From Candidatus Nitrosopumilus sp. (GTDB lineage: Archaea; Thermoproteota; Nitrososphaeria; Nitrososphaerales; Nitrosopumilaceae): a DNA stretch of 64,000 nt. The DNA lies in the NCBI RefSeq assembly GCF_028278985.1, contig NZ_JANQTA010000004.1:32334-96333 (forward strand), read 5' to 3'. Both the position numbers and the translations under genes were made by a program. The notes under the pieces were generated by a model. It had not been told where the DNA came from and made no database searches. It saw only the letters and a program-made list of their open reading frames with translations. Shown in pieces: positions 34,197 to 60,444 of the stretch. Numbering within the stretch: the stretch's first letter is position 1; each line of letters begins with the position of its first letter.

Positions 34197-34583
34197 TTAC
34201 ATTTCGTTCAACATTTTGTACAGCCGTTCGCTGAGTAACTTTGCATTGTTGTTTACATGTTCAATTTTTTTTAACTGCTCTGGTTCCAAATTTCCAAATT
34301 TTCCTGAAATCAACATATCGGTATATCCTATTATTGGAACTAGTGGGTTTCTGAGCTTATCATTCATATCTGAAATCTCATCTTTTGAAAAGGTTACTTT
34401 TGTCTCGAGTTTTTTTAAAAGCTCTTCTGATATTTCACCTGCAGACTCTAGTTCTTTTATCCTGCTTTCTATTGGATTTTGACTAGTTGAATTCAAATGT
34501 TTTTCCTTTTTCATCATATCTTTTAAAATCATATTGATCTGCTCTAATTCTCGAATCTTGTGGTTTGTATCCTCTGTAGTCAT
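34197..34583 (-). CDS. stand-alone DHp (HisKA-like) domain lacking phospho-His and lacking HATPase domain
   Basis: MNDKLRNPLVPIIGYTDML aligns to ITHELRTPLTPILGNVDYL of upstream kinase; start overlaps kinase stop by 4 nt. Confidence 0.8.
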   Translation of the reverse strand: MTTEDTNHKIRELEQINMILKDMMKKEKHLNSTSQNPIESRIKELESAGEISEELLKKLETKVTFSKDEISDMNDKLRNPLVPIIGYTDMLISGKFGNLEPEQLKKIEHVNNNAKLLSERLYKMLNEM

Positions 34584-36181
34584 CTTGCATCTTCTAGTTT
34601 TTGCGGAATCTGAACATAAAATGTTGCGCCGTGGCCTTTTTGGCTTTCTACCCAAATATTGCCTTTCAACCCGTCTGTGATTGCTTTGCAAATTGATAAT
34701 CCTAATCCGTTTCCGCCGTGTTTTCTTTTGTATGATGTGTCAATTTGATAAAATTTCCTAAACAGGTTTTTTTGGGCTTCTTCGGATATGCCTATCCCAT
34801 TGTCTCTGACTGAAAATATTATGTTTGAGCCTATTTTTTCTGAATCAAGAATAATTTTTCCCTTGTTTTTTTCTACAAAATCACATGCATTTCTTACAAG
34901 ATTTTCAAGTATCTGTTGAACTCGTTGTTTGTCTGACGCGATATCTATGGACTCTGATTTGATCTCAATTGTGATATTCTTATCTGTCATAACGTACTCA
35001 AAGTTTTCCCTTATTTTCTCAAGAATCTTTTTTGCATCAAACTGTGATGTTTTGAATTCTACTTTGTTCATAGAAAGCTTTTCAACATCCAAGAAATCTG
35101 AAATGAGTTTGTTTAGATGCACGGCATTATTTTTGATTGATAATATTGCATTTTTTTGCTCATCAGTGAGATTCTCTGATGCCTTTTTGTTTTGAAGATA
35201 ATCCACGTTTCCTAAGATTGGAGTAAGTGGAGTTCTTAATTCATGTGTAATCATCGCAGAAAATTCGTCTTTCATCTTTTCTACTTTTTTGAGATTCACC
35301 AATTCTTCTTCAGTCTTTATCTTGTCTTCCAATTTAGAATGTGCTGTAATGAGCTTCTCGTAGAGGATATGTCTCTTACTGTACTGTTCACTAATTGATG
35401 TGTATTGTGTGAGAATCAAAACCAAGTAGCCTGTATTTTTTAACATGTGTGCAACCGTGAATGCTGTGTCAAATACATGTGCTGAGTATGATATAGTCAG
35501 CGTTACAAACGTTTCAATCACCAGCAACAACAATATTCCGTTGTAAAATTTGTTGTCTAGCAAATTCAATTTTTTTCTATAAAATAATGCTATTGCGGCT
35601 AGGGATATTCCTGTGGCAATAATCTCATACGGTCTATGAATTGGCAAGTCAATTACAATAAACGGAAATGGCTTTGCAATGGAGATTAAAATTATCACTA
35701 CAGCCAGCAGTGAAACAATAGCTGAATACACTGTTGCCGATTTCTTCAATTCTTTGTCATTATCTGCCAAGTTTCTGGTAAATTTCATGATGCCTATGAA
35801 TAGTATGAGCGCCGTCAGAATTCTTCCTGCAACCCAGGTTTGAGGTATAAAGTATTCCATGACTGAATCCGTAATTGGTCCGTAAATTGTCAAAAAACCG
35901 TGCAGCAAATCAATTGATGCACTTGCCACAAATCCCAGTCCTACAAACATGCTGAATTTGTCTTTGAACGTAACTGCTCTTACAAGACAATAATATGCCA
36001 AGATTACAGCAAGAGTTACTGAAACCATCTCGAAGTAAAAATGATCTGTCTCTGAAACCACCCAAAGATCAGGAATCGATGCAATGTATGCAATTACCAA
36101 CAATACCACTGTGGGAAGTATGGTGTATCTAAAAAAATATGAAAAATTGAATTTCTGTTCAGCAGATTTTGCTTTAGTCAT
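34580..36181 (-). CDS. membrane histidine kinase: MASE3-like N-terminal sensor + HisKA + HATPase_c
   Basis: THELRTPLTPILGN H-box; NLVRNACDFVEKN N-box; DNGIGIS G1; GGNGLGLSI G2. Confidence 0.9.
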   Translation of the reverse strand: MTKAKSAEQKFNFSYFFRYTILPTVVLLVIAYIASIPDLWVVSETDHFYFEMVSVTLAVILAYYCLVRAVTFKDKFSMFVGLGFVASASIDLLHGFLTIYGPITDSVMEYFIPQTWVAGRILTALILFIGIMKFTRNLADNDKELKKSATVYSAIVSLLAVVIILISIAKPFPFIVIDLPIHRPYEIIATGISLAAIALFYRKKLNLLDNKFYNGILLLLVIETFVTLTISYSAHVFDTAFTVAHMLKNTGYLVLILTQYTSISEQYSKRHILYEKLITAHSKLEDKIKTEEELVNLKKVEKMKDEFSAMITHELRTPLTPILGNVDYLQNKKASENLTDEQKNAILSIKNNAVHLNKLISDFLDVEKLSMNKVEFKTSQFDAKKILEKIRENFEYVMTDKNITIEIKSESIDIASDKQRVQQILENLVRNACDFVEKNKGKIILDSEKIGSNIIFSVRDNGIGISEEAQKNLFRKFYQIDTSYKRKHGGNGLGLSICKAITDGLKGNIWVESQKGHGATFYVQIPQKLEDAR

Positions 36182-37269
36182 TTTTCACATATGACCTCGC
36201 TTTTCTTCCTGCCATCGTACAGGGAATGCACGGCATCAACCACACATGGCGAAATGTATGGATATGGGGTAATGATTTCTGGATGCATTAGGTCTTCTGG
36301 TGCAGATGAATGTGCCAATCCAAACACATGGCCTAATTCATGTCTTGAAATTACTTCAAGTTCCTTCAGGCTTATCCTGTCAACATCGTATATTGTAACT
36401 TCTGCTTTGAGAATCTGATTCTTGCTTGTATCTGCAATTACCTTTGTAAATCCTGAAATGCCGTCACCGTGAGCTAAGTTAGTTAGGCGTATGTTGATGT
36501 CACCTGCAATGTAGTTTTTCTCTGATATTATCTCCATGTTGGTGGGTATTGGAAATTTTGTAGGCTCCTTTGATGCCTCTTTTAGTGCCCCCATCCACCC
36601 AATATAGTATTTTGATACATTTCCTTTTGGACCCTTTCGTAATTCACTGTCATCTATCTCGTGAAATTCTTCTGAAAAGATTGTCTCACGAATCACCTCA
36701 AATCGTTCTGGGGTTAGGTGCTGATCATCAATGATGTTGACATAGAGAATTTTTTCATCTGGAATCTGCCATGATATTGCTGTTTCAACAGTGTCTCCTC
36801 TTAGGTTCTCAATCACAAAACTGGATTTTATCATACCTTCGTAGTTGGCAACTTGTTGATCATTTATTGCCAATGTTGTACTTGAAACGATGATTGCAAT
36901 AACAGCCATTGCCACAATTCCCACTGTCTTTTTATGTTGATGGCTTTTCTTGGTATCGATTTCTAAGAGAATTTCTTTTTGTTGTTCCAGTTCCCTTCTA
37001 CTGTGGTTTTTCGATGTTATCTGTTCAAACTTTGTTCTTGTACCGTTGATCTTTTTTATGTTGTATCTGATCTTTTCATTAATTTGCTTTAGAACTATGT
37101 TTTTTTGTTCAGATTCTGCAAGATCATGCACTACTTTGCTAACCTTGCCTCTTAGAATTTCATTTTCCTTTTCTAGTTTCTTTGTCTTTTTTACCAGAAC
37201 TCTCTCTATTTCCTGCAGTATCTCGTTTTTCTGGCAAGTATCACGTTCATTAGGTGTGCTTGTTATCAA
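36178..37269 (-). CDS. membrane-anchored metzincin (matrixin-like) metalloprotease with N-terminal coiled coil
   Basis: HELGHVFGLAH (HExxHxxGxxH) + Met-turn DLMHP; TM VGIVAMAVIAIIVSSTTLAI. Confidence 0.87.
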   Translation of the reverse strand: MITSTPNERDTCQKNEILQEIERVLVKKTKKLEKENEILRGKVSKVVHDLAESEQKNIVLKQINEKIRYNIKKINGTRTKFEQITSKNHSRRELEQQKEILLEIDTKKSHQHKKTVGIVAMAVIAIIVSSTTLAINDQQVANYEGMIKSSFVIENLRGDTVETAISWQIPDEKILYVNIIDDQHLTPERFEVIRETIFSEEFHEIDDSELRKGPKGNVSKYYIGWMGALKEASKEPTKFPIPTNMEIISEKNYIAGDINIRLTNLAHGDGISGFTKVIADTSKNQILKAEVTIYDVDRISLKELEVISRHELGHVFGLAHSSAPEDLMHPEIITPYPYISPCVVDAVHSLYDGRKKSEVICEK

Positions 37270-37288
37270 AAAGTATCCCCCAGATCTA

Positions 37289-37651
37289 TTATCTTAAGAC
37301 CTGTAGCAATTCATTCATCTTGGCAGGTTTTTTTAAACATGCTTTTGTACCTAATGCAAGCATTCTGTCTGTTTCCTCTTGGGAAATTGATGATGCTGTA
37401 AACAAAATTATCTTGTTTGGTTCGACGATTCTTTCATTACATATTGTTTCTAATACTTCCATTCCGGAAAATTCTGGCATTGCCAAATCTAAAATTATTC
37501 TGTCAAAATTTGAATTCCGAACTAATACTAGACCATTTCTGCCATCATTTGAGACTGTAACTCCAATATTCTCCAGTTTAAGATACCTGGAAAGCATATC
37601 TGTTATCTCTGAATTATCATCTATTACTAACACTCTCATTCCCGCAGTCAC
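37289..37651 (-). CDS. CheY-like response regulator (receiver only)
   Basis: VLVIDDN, RIILDLAMPEFSG, ILFTASS, CLKKPAK. Confidence 0.93.
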   Translation of the reverse strand: MTAGMRVLVIDDNSEITDMLSRYLKLENIGVTVSNDGRNGLVLVRNSNFDRIILDLAMPEFSGMEVLETICNERIVEPNKIILFTASSISQEETDRMLALGTKACLKKPAKMNELLQVLR

Positions 37652-38871: not shown

Positions 38872-41800
38872 ATGATCCTAGGTATGCATGGTCGTGGATT
38901 ATTGTTAGGGGTGTTGTTTAGTCTTTTGTTAACTGGATTTTCATTTTCACAACAGGCATTTGCTGTTGATAGCGATGCAGATGGACTAGATGATTCTGAT
39001 GAAACTTCAATTTATGCCACTGATCCTTTTGATGATGACACTGATGATGATGGAATACTTGATGGCACAGAAGTTAACATTCATGGCACTGATCCACTAA
39101 ATTCTGATTCAGATGGGGATGGGTTGACTGATGGTGTAGAAGTTGGTCTTGCATCTCCACAAGGTGCTGATTCTGACCCTGGCGTGTTTGTGCCAGATGC
39201 TGACGCTGGTGCAACAACAACTAATCCTCTTTCTACAGACACTGATGGTGGAGGATTGCCTGATGGCGATGAGGATCTAAATGCTAATGGTATTGTAGAT
39301 GCAGGAGAGACTGATCCAAATAACCCTGTAGATGATGTACCTTCAAACATTGCCCCTGTTGTTGATGCAGGTTCTGGAGATACAATTGACGAAGGCGATA
39401 CATTTTCTTACTCAGGTTCATTTGCAGATCCTGATGCAGATTCTTGGACTGCAACTGTAGATTATGGCGATGGTTCTGGAATACAACCGCTTGTCTTAAT
39501 TGGAAAAACATTTGAACTTGATCATGTCTATTCTCAAGACAACAATTCTCTTAATGCAGGGCTTCCATTCGAGGTAAAAGTTTCAGTTGATGATGGATCT
39601 GATATTGTTGTTGAAACAGCTCTTGTAACTGTAAACAATGTGCTTCCTGTAGTAGAACCGATTCCAAATCTTACTATAGATGAAGGCGATTCTATTTCAA
39701 TTCCTGATGTTTCTTTTATTGATCCTGGAAGCGATGTTTGGACTGCAAGTGTGATTTGGGGCGATTCTGATTTTGAAGACCTCGTAATTGATTCTGTTAA
39801 CAAGGAATTTGATCTTAATCATACATTTCTAAGTGATGGCCACTTTATCGTAACAATTACCATTACTGATGGTCCTGGAGTTGACACTGATGGGGATGGA
39901 ATTCCTGATAGCACTACAACCAGTGCAGAGTTTGTTGTTACTGTCAACAATGTCACGCCTACACTTACTCCTGGTACCGATGGCACCATCAATGAGGGAG
40001 ACTTGTTTTCAACTACTGGCTCATTTGTTGATCCTGGAGAAGATCCTTGGGTGGTTTCAGTAGATTTTGGTGACGGAACTGGAACATCAAACGTCGGGTT
40101 TGAATCTGACAAAACGTTCTTGCTTGAACATGTCTATGACAATGATGGGGTCTATGATGTTACTGTAACAGTTGATGATGGCGCCGATTCTGTTTTTGGC
40201 AAATTTAGTGTAACAGTAGACAATGTTGCACCAACAGTTGATGCAGGGAATGATGTGACAATTGACGAAGGTGACTTGTTTTCATCCTTGGGATCTTTTT
40301 CAGATCCTGGAAGTGAAATTCCAACAATAACTGTAGATTATGGAGATGGATCTGGACCACAAGTTGTAGTTCCAAATCCTGACGGCTCAATTGATCTTAG
40401 TCATGTCTATTCTAATGATGGAGTGTATACTGTAATGGTTTCTGCTAATGATGGTTTATCTTCAAGTTCTGATACTGGAACTGTAACTGTTGAAAATGTT
40501 CTTCCAATAGTTGGTGTTGATGACAAAACAGTAGGTGATAATAAGGACTTTACAGCAACCGGTTCCTTTTCAGATCCTGGTAATGACTCTTGGAGTGCAA
40601 CAGTTGATTACGGTGACGGAACAGGAGTGCAACCACTTGCATTAAATCCTGACATGACATTCTCTTTGGCAAATAATTATCTCTCAAATGGTGCATACTC
40701 TGTAACTGTTGCCGTTAGCGATGATGACGGCAGTGGCGTTTCATCATTTGATGTTGGCGTCTTTGTAAGTACATCTGGTCCGGGAAGTGGTCTGGTGTCT
40801 CCACCTGATGTCTTTGCCTCATTTAGTGGTGATGCCACATTTACTACAACTGATCAGGACATCTGGAGTCCTTCAAATGACGGTTCTGCAAGTTGGGACT
40901 TGTTTACTCCTCAGTCATGGGATGAAAGTGATGGTGCAAGTGACTATGTGACTCTGGCCAAAAAGAAATTGGGTGGAGGAATTAGTGCAGGAACAAGCGG
41001 ACACTTGAGCATGTCTGCAGGTACTGAAAACCTTGAGGGAACAGTAGATGTGTATTATCCAGGTGATGTTGAAATTGAACATCTAGATGCAAATACATTC
41101 TTGGCAGGTGAAAGTGTTCCAATTAGTTCTCAATGGACTTTAGATTCTGCAAATGCAAACATTGATTCTTCATCAAAAGGCGACCTTACAATGTTCTTTG
41201 ATATGGGATTGAAGGAATTCATTGATACCGATGTGTGTCTGTTGTTTGGATGTGCTGACTTGTTTGCAATTCCAGACATTGATTTTGACACAGGAAAGAC
41301 TACCATGTTTAGTTTTGATGCTGCTGGAACAACAAATGTTGTTCCAGACTTTGTATCAAACGCATTGATTGGGACTGCCGCAACTTTTGGTCCTGTGTCA
41401 GTAGAGGTTGAGGATGTATCAGTAAAACCTTCAGGAGAAGTTGTTGGGTTTGGTTCCAATACGTTCTCTTCAATGGTAATTGATATTGACAAAGTTTACA
41501 CAAATCTGAAATGTCTAGCAGCTGGAATTCCTCCACTTCCAATAGTCTGTCCATCATTTGGAGCATCTGTTCCAGTTCCAGGAGCAAAATTATCTTATGA
41601 CTTCTTTGATGCAAAGTCTGACATTGACTTTATTGCAAACCAAGAACTTAGATTCAACACTGGAATTCTAACAAAATTAGATTTCAGCAGTCCTGTTGAG
41701 GGAGTGACTGGTTCTGTAGTTGACGTTGACGTTGATGGTTCTGGCCAAGTAACTTCAGTGATTTTCAGCGAAAACAGTGAAATCAACGTTGTGTTTCCAC

Positions 41801-43368
41801 AAGGAAGAACAGAGCCAATTGTTGTTACTCCGACAATCTTGCTTGATTCAGACAAGACTACTCTTTCACAGTTTACTGAAGTCAGCACTGAAAGTGATGT
41901 CACTATGAAATCACTTGAGGCATTTTTGGAAGTTCCTGGATTTACTGTCGTGCCTCCAATTCCTGTCTACAATCCTGTTCCACATTATTCTGACTGTCAC
42001 TGTCATGGATTCCTCTGCTCAGGATTCCATTGCCATCACGGTCCACACTTCCACAAGATCAGCGAAACTCCTGCAGTGGTGTTTGATGGCAAATTCATTA
42101 CCCTCCCAGCAGTATGGAACAGCGGTCCACAGGGAGAGCAAGAAAGAAACGATGTAATCTCTGATGACACGTTTGCCCTTGGAGGATTCAATACAGTGCA
42201 ACTTGCAAGCTTTGAGTTAGACCCAGAAGTTCCACCAACTGCAGTATTTGGAGGCCCATATGTTGTCCATGAGGGCTCTACAATCATGCTTGATGGTTCT
42301 GCCTCATTTGATGTTGATCTTCCTGTTCAGCCACTGACCTATTCCTGGGATTTGGATGATGATGGTACTTTTGAGACTCCTGGTGAGACAGTTGAATTTA
42401 CAGATACAGCAGATGGACCTGCAACACCTACTGTTTCATTACAAGTATGTGACGAACATAATTGTACAGTTGATTCAGGAATAGTTCAAGTTCAAAACGT
42501 TGCTCCAACTGTTGAAGCTGGAAATGATCAAGAGGCTGTAATTCATGATTTGGTCAAGCTTGATCCTTCTACATTTACAGATCCTGGATTTGACTGTGCA
42601 GTGTGCTCTACATATGAAGACTTTGTTGGAACTGCCAATTGGGGCGAAGGAAGTGACACATCACTAATCATTGATGAAACCCCTGGAAGTCTTGGAGTGT
42701 TGACTGAAGGCGCTGCATCTGAAAGTCATATCTATCGTTTACCTGGCAAATATGCCGTAACTGTAACTATTGATGATGATGACGCAGGAACAAGCAGTGA
42801 CACATTTATCGCAACAGTCCTTGGCGCTCAAGACCTAAAGAACAGAGTTCTAACAACGCTTGAACCATTTGAATCAGAATCAAAAGACGTTAGAGATACA
42901 ATCAAAAAGATTGAGAAGAGTCTTGAGATAAAACTATGGGAGGATGAGGTGAATCTAAATGATAAGAAAGGAGATAAAGTCTTTGATGAGGAAAAGAGTG
43001 CTGTAAAGAAACTTCTCAAAATTATAAATCCTGACGAGGATGACGATGACGATGATGATGACAACAAGAAGACACCAAGTCCTGAACTAAAGACAGCAGC
43101 TCATTTTGGTATTGATACTCTGGTAAATGCTGACAGGGTATTGACCATTACTGCAATGTTGGAGGCTGAAAACACACCGGTAACAAATCCAAAAGACCAA
43201 AAGAAAGTAGACAAAGAAATTACAAAATCTGCTGAAGACTTTGCAAAGGGTGATTCATTTCGTGATACAGGAAAGCCTGACAAGGCAATAGATAGTTACA
43301 AGAAAGCATGGGAACATGCAATGAAAGCCATCAAACATGCACTAGACAAGCCTGATGATGACGACTAG
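38872..43368 (+). CDS. giant secreted surface protein: signal peptide, thrombospondin type 3-like Ca repeats, ~5 tandem PKD-like domains, Cys/His-rich loop, 2 further PKD-like domains, Asp-rich linker, helical C-terminus
   Basis: 1498 aa; [12 protein letters not shown]..., repeated (V)[43 protein letters not shown]. Confidence 0.92.
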
Positions 43369-59196: not shown

Positions 59197-59571
59197 ATGA
59201 ACATAGTTGTGTTTGACAGAGATGACACGCTGTCAAAGTCATTTGGGATCTTTCTTGAATCATACGGATATCATGTGATGGTATCTGACAAGTTCCAAAC
59301 AGCTATTTCGCTTGCATGCTCTTTTAAAACAGACATATTCATTTCAGAATACCTAGAAGATGATCCTGAGTTTCTTAACCATCTGAAAACAATAAAGCAA
59401 GACAAACCGGACCTTGATATAATAATCTTAACTTGTTCTAAAGTCAGTCCAAAACAGATACATGACCTAGGTATACCCATGATCTTTGAGAAACCCATAA
59501 CGCCAACATTGCTACTGGACATAATCAGTAAGAAAAAGCACAAGAATAGTGTGCAAGAAATTTTTCAATAG
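59197..59571 (+). CDS. receiver-like domain protein with phospho-Asp replaced by Glu
   Basis: MNIVVFDRDDTLSKSF...DIFISEYLEDDPEFLNHLKTI...IILTCSK...IFEKPI. Confidence 0.82.
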   Translation: MNIVVFDRDDTLSKSFGIFLESYGYHVMVSDKFQTAISLACSFKTDIFISEYLEDDPEFLNHLKTIKQDKPDLDIIILTCSKVSPKQIHDLGIPMIFEKPITPTLLLDIISKKKHKNSVQEIFQ

Positions 59572-59583
59572 GGGACCATCTTT

Positions 59584-60444
59584 TTGAGTGATAACAAAGA
59601 CTCTAGGCAAAACGTAAATGAAAAACAAAAAGAACTATTGCAAAATGCAACATTAAGGCATTTAATAAAACATAATCTCAAAAAGGGTCAGAATACAAAG
59701 CTAATCATAGTTTGTCTAGCTATAGTGGGTTCGTTAGGAACTGTCGGATTCTTTACATTTTCAAACAATGATGTAGTCCAAAATGAGCCAGAGCATATGA
59801 AAACAATGTTACGAGTACAAAACCTTAGGGGTGACACAGTATCAACTTGGGCTGCATGGAAGATTCTTGAGGAAGATCTGTTCCATGTGCATGTTGTTGA
59901 TTCTGCTTATGCAACCAAAGAAAGACAGGATGCAATTCTTGATACGATCATGTCCTTAGAGAAAATTGAGATAGACGATTCCCTGTTGCACAAGGGTCCT
60001 AAAGGTACGACATCAACATATTACATGGGATGGTATGGCGCATTAAACAGCATCAACAATACAACATTACACCCTATCCCCAAGAATCTGCATTTTCATG
60101 TTACAGACAAAGGGGAAGGCGACATTCTGATAGAACTCAACAATATGCCGCATCCTGAGGGAATTTCAGGCTATACAACCACTGTAATTGATGAAAACTC
60201 ACATCAGATACTAAAGGCTCACATCACAATATACAACGTAGAGAAACTGAGCATGCCTCAGCTAAAAACTATAGTGCGGCACGAACTGGGCCACGGTTTT
60301 GGATTGGGGCATTCTACTGCACCTGAGGATTTGATGGCCCCGCAAATAACTACTGCATACCCATACATATCCGAATGTGCTCTGGATACGATAGAGGCAT
60401 TGTACAACGACCTTGGAACGGACGAGGTAATGTGCAAAAAATGA
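59584..60444 (+). CDS. membrane-anchored metzincin metalloprotease (paralog of 36178-37269)
   Basis: HELGHGFGLGH + DLMAP Met-turn; TM LIIVCLAIVGSLGTVGFFTF; TTG start. Confidence 0.87.
   Translation: MSDNKDSRQNVNEKQKELLQNATLRHLIKHNLKKGQNTKLIIVCLAIVGSLGTVGFFTFSNNDVVQNEPEHMKTMLRVQNLRGDTVSTWAAWKILEEDLFHVHVVDSAYATKERQDAILDTIMSLEKIEIDDSLLHKGPKGTTSTYYMGWYGALNSINNTTLHPIPKNLHFHVTDKGEGDILIELNNMPHPEGISGYTTTVIDENSHQILKAHITIYNVEKLSMPQLKTIVRHELGHGFGLGHSTAPEDLMAPQITTAYPYISECALDTIEALYNDLGTDEVMCKK

Follow-up and report, generated by a model that had tools for sequence, protein, structure and literature searches.

A candidate archaeal two-component system with a matrixin-type protease outside the cell as its proposed output

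Results

Organization of the cassette

The analysed stretch of DNA, hereafter the window, comprises 64,000 nucleotides of a Candidatus Nitrosopumilus genome. Four open reading frames are present on its minus strand at 34197-37651, in the order REC, metzincin, MASE3 kinase, and DHp-only protein. The first (37289..37651) encodes a REC-only response regulator of 120 aa with a GTG start, an ATG at 37639 being a possible alternative, and the second (36178..37269) a membrane-anchored matrixin-type metzincin of 363 aa, which starts with TTG and matches PF00413 above the cut-off. They are followed by a MASE3-HisKA-HATPase_c membrane histidine kinase (34580..36181, 533 aa, ATG start, domains by Pfam) and by the DHp-only protein (34197..34583, 128 aa, ATG start at 34583). 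The earlier note on this DNA described four co-directional and tightly packed genes, and this was borne out: the REC/metzincin junction measures 19 nt, and the metzincin/kinase and kinase/DHp junctions are 4-nt ATGA overlaps, the latter given the ATG at 34583 as the DHp start. A scan for sigma-70-type promoters and terminators yielded sites not above those in shuffled sequences, sigma-70 being the wrong promoter type for archaea. Divergent from the cassette, at 38872-43368 on the plus strand, lies a gene for a probably secreted protein of 1498 aa with Asp-rich and PKD-like repeats recognized by eye, which is a possible candidate for a surface substrate of the metzincin.

The REC protein matches Response_reg (PF00072, E 9.3e-20), lacks an output domain of its own, and retains the complete catalytic set, i.e., the Asp pair DD, the phospho-acceptor Asp within LDLAMP, TAS, and KKP. 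In the REC tree it is grouped with RECs located upstream of metzincins. The kinase matches MASE3 (8e-13), HisKA (2.5e-15), and HATPase_c (2.7e-29), all above the cut-off, and its boxes are intact (H-box THELRTPL, DNGIGI, and GGNGLGL), so that the H, N, G1, and G2 boxes of a two-component kinase stand beside a receiver with its phospho-acceptor Asp and catalytic residues. The MASE3 kinase itself was rejected as a conserved part of the cassette, as its nearest homologue (44% identity) adjoins a REC without a metzincin. Kinase sensors are swapped between operons, with MASE3 in the window and dCache in L040 and L048.

The metzincin and its predicted topology

The metzincin matches Peptidase_M10 in Pfam above the cut-off (1.8e-7). 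Its N-terminal part is a coiled coil (aa 7-107, 36949..37251, minus strand) with the motif ELEQQKEIL at aa 93-101, followed by a single TM helix at aa about 117-135 (36865..36921, minus strand). Four K/R residues flank this helix before and one after, and by the positive-inside rule the bias predicts an N-in, protease-out topology, which would place the coil in the cytoplasm. The catalytic motif HELGHVFGLAH was located at aa 310-320 (36310..36342, minus strand) and the Met-turn DLM at aa 326-328, so the anatomy claimed earlier, with a cytoplasmic coiled coil, one TM helix, and an external HExxHxxGxxH domain, agrees with these features. In the family alignments, the H, E, H, G, and H of the zinc motif and the Met-turn are invariant, as is characteristic of M10, and the ectodomain of about 215 aa contains two invariant Cys and conserved blocks of its own. 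A pro-domain cysteine switch was not apparent from the metzincin sequence.

The AF2 model of the protein (mean pLDDT 87) consists of the helix 7-107, the TM segment, and a metzincin domain with an MMP-like fold, pLDDT exceeding 90 over most of the catalytic part. The best matches of this domain found by Foldseek in the PDB were MMP-7, MMP-11, and karilysin, with a target TM-score of about 0.6, and the matches overall included MMP-7, MMP-9, karilysin, and profragilysin. With the model of a fused relative described below (L112), the search returned MMPs only, a result that concerns the protease part.

Separate and fused DHp modules

The DHp-only protein scores just below the HisKA cut-off (25.3 bits against 26.9; E 1.6e-5). 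Its H-box is degenerate (NDKLRNP, 34344..34364, minus strand; in full NDKLRNPL), with Asp at the position of the phospho-acceptor His found in proteins of the Spo0B/ChpT type, and the protein has no ATPase domain. When it was used as the query against 200 genomes, 18 other matches passed 1e-12, all of them metzincin-fused or stand-alone DHps, and every stand-alone match but one lies directly ahead of a metzincin, the exception (G021) being about 2 kb away. Separate DHp genes beside metzincins are maintained in several genera. The earlier label of a DHp pseudo-kinase is thus correct as to degeneracy (His to Asp), but the protein is not a random pseudo-kinase; it represents, as a gene of its own, the DHp module that belongs to the metzincin family.

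The fused form was found in 17 proteins of 420-473 aa, in which a DHp module at the N-terminus is continued by a coiled coil, a TM helix, and the metzincin, and all 17 match both HisKA (E <0.001) and Peptidase_M10 in Pfam. Without any ATPase domain, 16 of the 17 keep the phospho-acceptor His in the form H-E-[LI]-[RK]-[TS]-P, and the His is also kept in 5/7 separate DHps. The H-E-x-x-T motif of HisKA phosphatase activity is preserved in most fused DHps, and Asn is retained at the T/N position of the Asp variants. The AF2 model of L112 shows the H-box helix at 64-89 and a single helix at 98-227 that joins the second DHp helix, the coil, and the TM segment; the pLDDT of this long helix is about 65-94 and drops at its outer end (<50 at residues 223-242), beyond which the metzincin domain is confident. 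At L065:3501-7871, a fused DHp-metzincin carries Asp in place of His (NDELRNP), and a separate DHp gene with an intact His lies beyond the kinase. At L050:5866-7250 (G014), the normally fused DHp-metzincin gene is broken into halves by frame disruptions.

In the DHp tree, all 24 metzincin-linked DHps fall into one clade (98% SH-aLRT) apart from all 42 kinase DHps. Their nearest relatives are three second kinases (HK2) of REC-metzincin-HK1-HK2 operons (85%; 74 columns), an arrangement that occurs at L048, L068, L088, L122, L134, L136 (Ca. Nitrosotalea devanaterra, LN890280.1), and L163, and in which HK2 occupies the position of the window's DHp-only gene. The metzincin-linked DHps thus probably derive from HK2 of such operons. 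This suggests a series, whose order we infer, from HK2 to a DHp-only protein that lost its ATPase domain, as in the window, then to a DHp gene ahead of the metzincin (L037, L039, and L064), and finally to the fusion; the window looks like an intermediate stage with the DHp unfused at the place of HK2 and the phospho-His lost. Metzincin linkers and separate DHps also have a short coiled-coil motif in common, E-L-E-Q-x-x-x-x-L, which is present in 22/68 metzincins and 3/7 separate DHps and in only 1/44 kinases, this being the HK2 of a metzincin operon, and 1/734 other genes. The window has it twice, at aa 93 of the metzincin and near the N-terminus of the DHp protein (ELEQINMIL).

Association of metzincins with receiver genes

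In 60 regions and the window, a same-strand REC lies within 200 bp of 41/68 metzincins (31 upstream and 10 downstream). At 79 GTDB loci, this applies to 34/82 metzincins compared with 2/56 control genes of the same loci, and a convergent REC lies within 200 bp of 13 further metzincins; the two sets share some contigs and are not independent. Of the 12 metzincin copies in four closed genomes, 8 have a REC at a distance of at most 300 bp, compared with 1.9% expected for genes placed at random (P 9e-12, a value that is too small owing to related copies, which leaves the effect itself unaffected), and in the window's genome all three metzincins have an adjacent same-strand REC. A chance neighbourhood was rejected on the basis of the GTDB controls and the closed genomes. 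The neighbourhood thus recurs in relatives from many genera far above chance, a co-occurrence that the earlier note had proposed to search for and whose absence it would have counted against its reading. Two-component control does not extend to the whole family, however, since about 40% or more of its copies lack a neighbouring same-strand REC.

Most of the metzincin-adjacent RECs are bare receivers. They are distributed over several groups of the REC tree (120 columns, weak deep support): two upstream lineages, the main one with 37/44 rows metzincin-linked and the window REC among its members, a convergent lineage, and downstream partners, some of them REC-NitrOD5 proteins. The linked RECs therefore do not represent one inherited pair, and that RECs were recruited repeatedly speaks for a functional requirement. 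These proteases are wired in a different manner at L090:5839-7496 and at L091, L072, L070, L074, and L135, where the metzincin is followed by a REC joined to the thaumarchaeal output domain NitrOD5; the Pfam matches to NitrOD5 are weak in L090 and L072, and the other loci encode homologous proteins of 216-222 aa. At L159, L160, L164, L165, L167, L175, and L177-L182, many of them in Nitrosotalea-type genomes, the metzincin converges with a REC of 168-172 aa at a distance of 30-55 bp.

Distribution and other architectures of the family

At a loose threshold, metzincin matches occur in 136/200 genomes of the window's family, and closer members are present in several copies per genome. All stringent matches in a phylum sample of 398 genomes fall inside this family, i.e., the Nitrosopumilaceae-type ammonia-oxidizing archaea, and when 85,462 species were scanned, the 80 best matches were records named Thaumarchaeota, Nitrosopumilaceae-type genera, or 'archaeon'. 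The window's genome encodes 3 metzincins and 32 RECs. One paralogous membrane metzincin (59584..60444, plus strand, 286 aa) begins 12 nt past a gene for a paralogous REC-like response regulator (59197..59571, plus strand) with a weak Pfam score (26.9 bits, cut-off 30.2). This second cassette (59197-60444) has no kinase nearby, and its divergent REC groups solely with the REC of L061.

Two proteins of 592-593 aa (L080:4805-6583 and L083:5281-7062) combine an extracellular dCache domain, a TM helix, a short cytoplasmic segment, a second TM helix, and the metzincin in one chain, and are apparently one-component sensor-proteases. Three metzincins of 625-646 aa (L069:14002-15942, L152:4945-6822, and L183:4954-6858) have a long N-terminal part and no Pfam match besides M10; TM segments were counted for the L069 protein, which has about ten of them ahead of the metzincin domain. 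As sensors are joined to the metzincin in more than one way and the kinase sensors vary, the metzincin fits the role of an output better than that of an input. No conserved substrate gene was found beside the metzincins, and the recurring non-signalling neighbours resemble shared synteny.

Discussion

We propose that the cassette encodes an archaeal two-component system with proteolysis outside the cell as its output, a reading to which we assign a probability of about 0.6. The MASE3 kinase would sense a signal and phosphorylate the REC-only regulator, and the phosphorylated REC would dock on the kinase-derived four-helix DHp module. In many relatives, the metzincin itself carries this docking module as its N-terminal cytoplasmic part, and in the window a separate DHp protein would pair with the metzincin coiled coil via the common ELEQxxxxL motif. 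The docking event, or a phosphotransfer in proteins that retain the His, would alter the continuous helix that links the DHp hairpin with the coiled coil and crosses the membrane, and the altered helix would switch the matrixin domain outside. The elements on which this proposal builds, namely gene linkage, domain fusion, conservation of catalytic residues, the common origin of the metzincin-linked DHps, and the topology predicted by sequence rules, were established from sequence, and they support the earlier view of an envelope metalloprotease coupled to a two-component system, with a neighbourhood kept across many genera and fusions of DHp and metzincin in relatives. From them we infer the phosphoryl flow, the docking, the direction of signalling, and the enzymatic activity of the metzincin. 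Whether ammonia-oxidizing archaea thus possess a novel type of signalling receptor, in effect a kinase receptor working in reverse, in which the DHp module is the input domain and drives an extracellular enzyme across the membrane while REC-only regulators directly switch proteolysis at the surface, appears to us evenly balanced.

The same anatomy could run outside-in, and this direction is the main rival. The metzincin ectodomain would then sense by binding or cutting an external peptide, the DHp would serve as a phosphatase or sink for phosphorylated REC, and the protease would tune the kinase-REC pair. The domains are indeed those of a kinase receptor, arranged in the opposite order, and the phosphatase motif retained in most fused DHps, together with the Asn of the Asp variants, suits such a role. 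We nevertheless consider it unlikely, because it leaves the REC without an output in the operon, because the catalytic residues are invariant, and because the dCache and many-TM metzincins have sensor-like parts with neither DHp nor kinase, which makes best sense if the metzincin is the effector. It can also be held against our proposal that metzincin and DHp are apart in the window operon, that this DHp lacks the His, and that operon partners may merely be co-expressed. Tight operons are common, REC-only proteins can have many partners, and a DHp with neither His nor ATPase domain could be a decaying kinase fragment, the kinase and REC controlling protease expression or an unlinked process. 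Co-expression alone would not lead one to expect 17 DHp-metzincin fusions with the His kept in all but one. Most receivers next to metzincins are bare, separate DHp genes are retained beside metzincins in several genera, and such a simple regulatory neighbourhood seems to us improbable, still more so than outside-in signalling.

For the fused relatives, as distinct from the window, a version of the proposed inside-out system is conceivable in which phosphorylation of the metzincin's own His gates the protease, the DHp acting either like Spo0B or ChpT, in a flow from kinase to REC to metzincin, or as a target phosphorylated in trans by the ATPase domain of the kinase. The conserved H-box in nearly all fused and most separate DHps that lack an ATPase domain speaks for it, and a phosphorelay in relatives is possible. 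The forms without His in the window, L065, and L095 still adjoin a metzincin, which makes phosphotransfer dispensable in these cases at least, and we hold His gating to be doubtful. The Asp of the window DHp excludes a phosphotransferase role and leaves docking as its sole mode. By analogy, we predict that it most likely docks as in the DivK-DivL pair of Caulobacter, in which a DHp module of kinase origin, devoid of kinase and phosphatase activity, reads a REC-only regulator, and information runs from the regulator to the kinase-like protein (PMC4211667). DivL works in a cytoplasmic kinase network, whereas the DHp modules described here are either fused to an extracellular protease or its proposed partner.

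Other known systems share parts of this design. LapD-LapG likewise controls, from inside out across the membrane, a protease located beyond the cytoplasm, but there the signal is c-di-GMP, the periplasmic protease is separate, and no kinase, REC, DHp, or metzincin takes part (PMC3032553); no c-di-GMP-binding EAL/GGDEF receptor domain was found by Pfam in the cassette proteins. In GacS-RetS, presented as the first precedent of its kind among kinase systems, what happens at the DHp domain alters the conformation of an extracellular domain on the other side of the membrane (PMC12148439), although that domain is sensory rather than enzymatic, and the partner is another kinase. Spo0B, acting with Spo0F, and ChpT are likewise kinase-like DHp proteins without kinase activity that work with receiver domains (PMC3433190); they differ in being soluble phosphotransferases that feed transcription factors, and the window protein lacks their His. 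With the matrixins (M10; MMP-7, MMP-9, and karilysin) the protease has in common the HExxHxxGxxH motif, the Met-turn, and the MMP fold, and is set apart by its ectodomain of about 215 aa with two invariant Cys and own conserved blocks, and by an N-terminal signalling helix as the membrane anchor. From its annotation, it would belong to arCOG04994, annotated as matrixin in sponge symbionts (PMC6697440).

The window REC is a member of the REC-only regulators of Thaumarchaeota. According to a census of archaeal two-component systems, REC-only proteins account for about 75% of the thaumarchaeal regulators, and most have no conserved neighbourhood; their functions were not inferable, and proteases are unmentioned (PMC5847659). 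Inside-out signalling via kinase modules has been proposed only recently (PMC12148439). Our literature search, which had most subscription papers outside its reach so that a prior mention is possible, found no description of the architecture and no paper that treats an M10 peptidase together with a histidine kinase in thaumarchaea, and met the family solely as an annotated matrixin (arCOG04994). The present data offer one lineage of the orphan REC-only regulators of thaumarchaea a concrete candidate output, and the natural fusions point to a candidate post-translational route from two-component signalling to the cell surface. The repeated link of the protease's inner end to two-component parts, as neighbours or by fusion, suggests that proteolysis outside is switched on by a phosphate signal from within the cell. 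It also suggests that ammonia-oxidizing archaea may control cutting on their own surface in response to signals.
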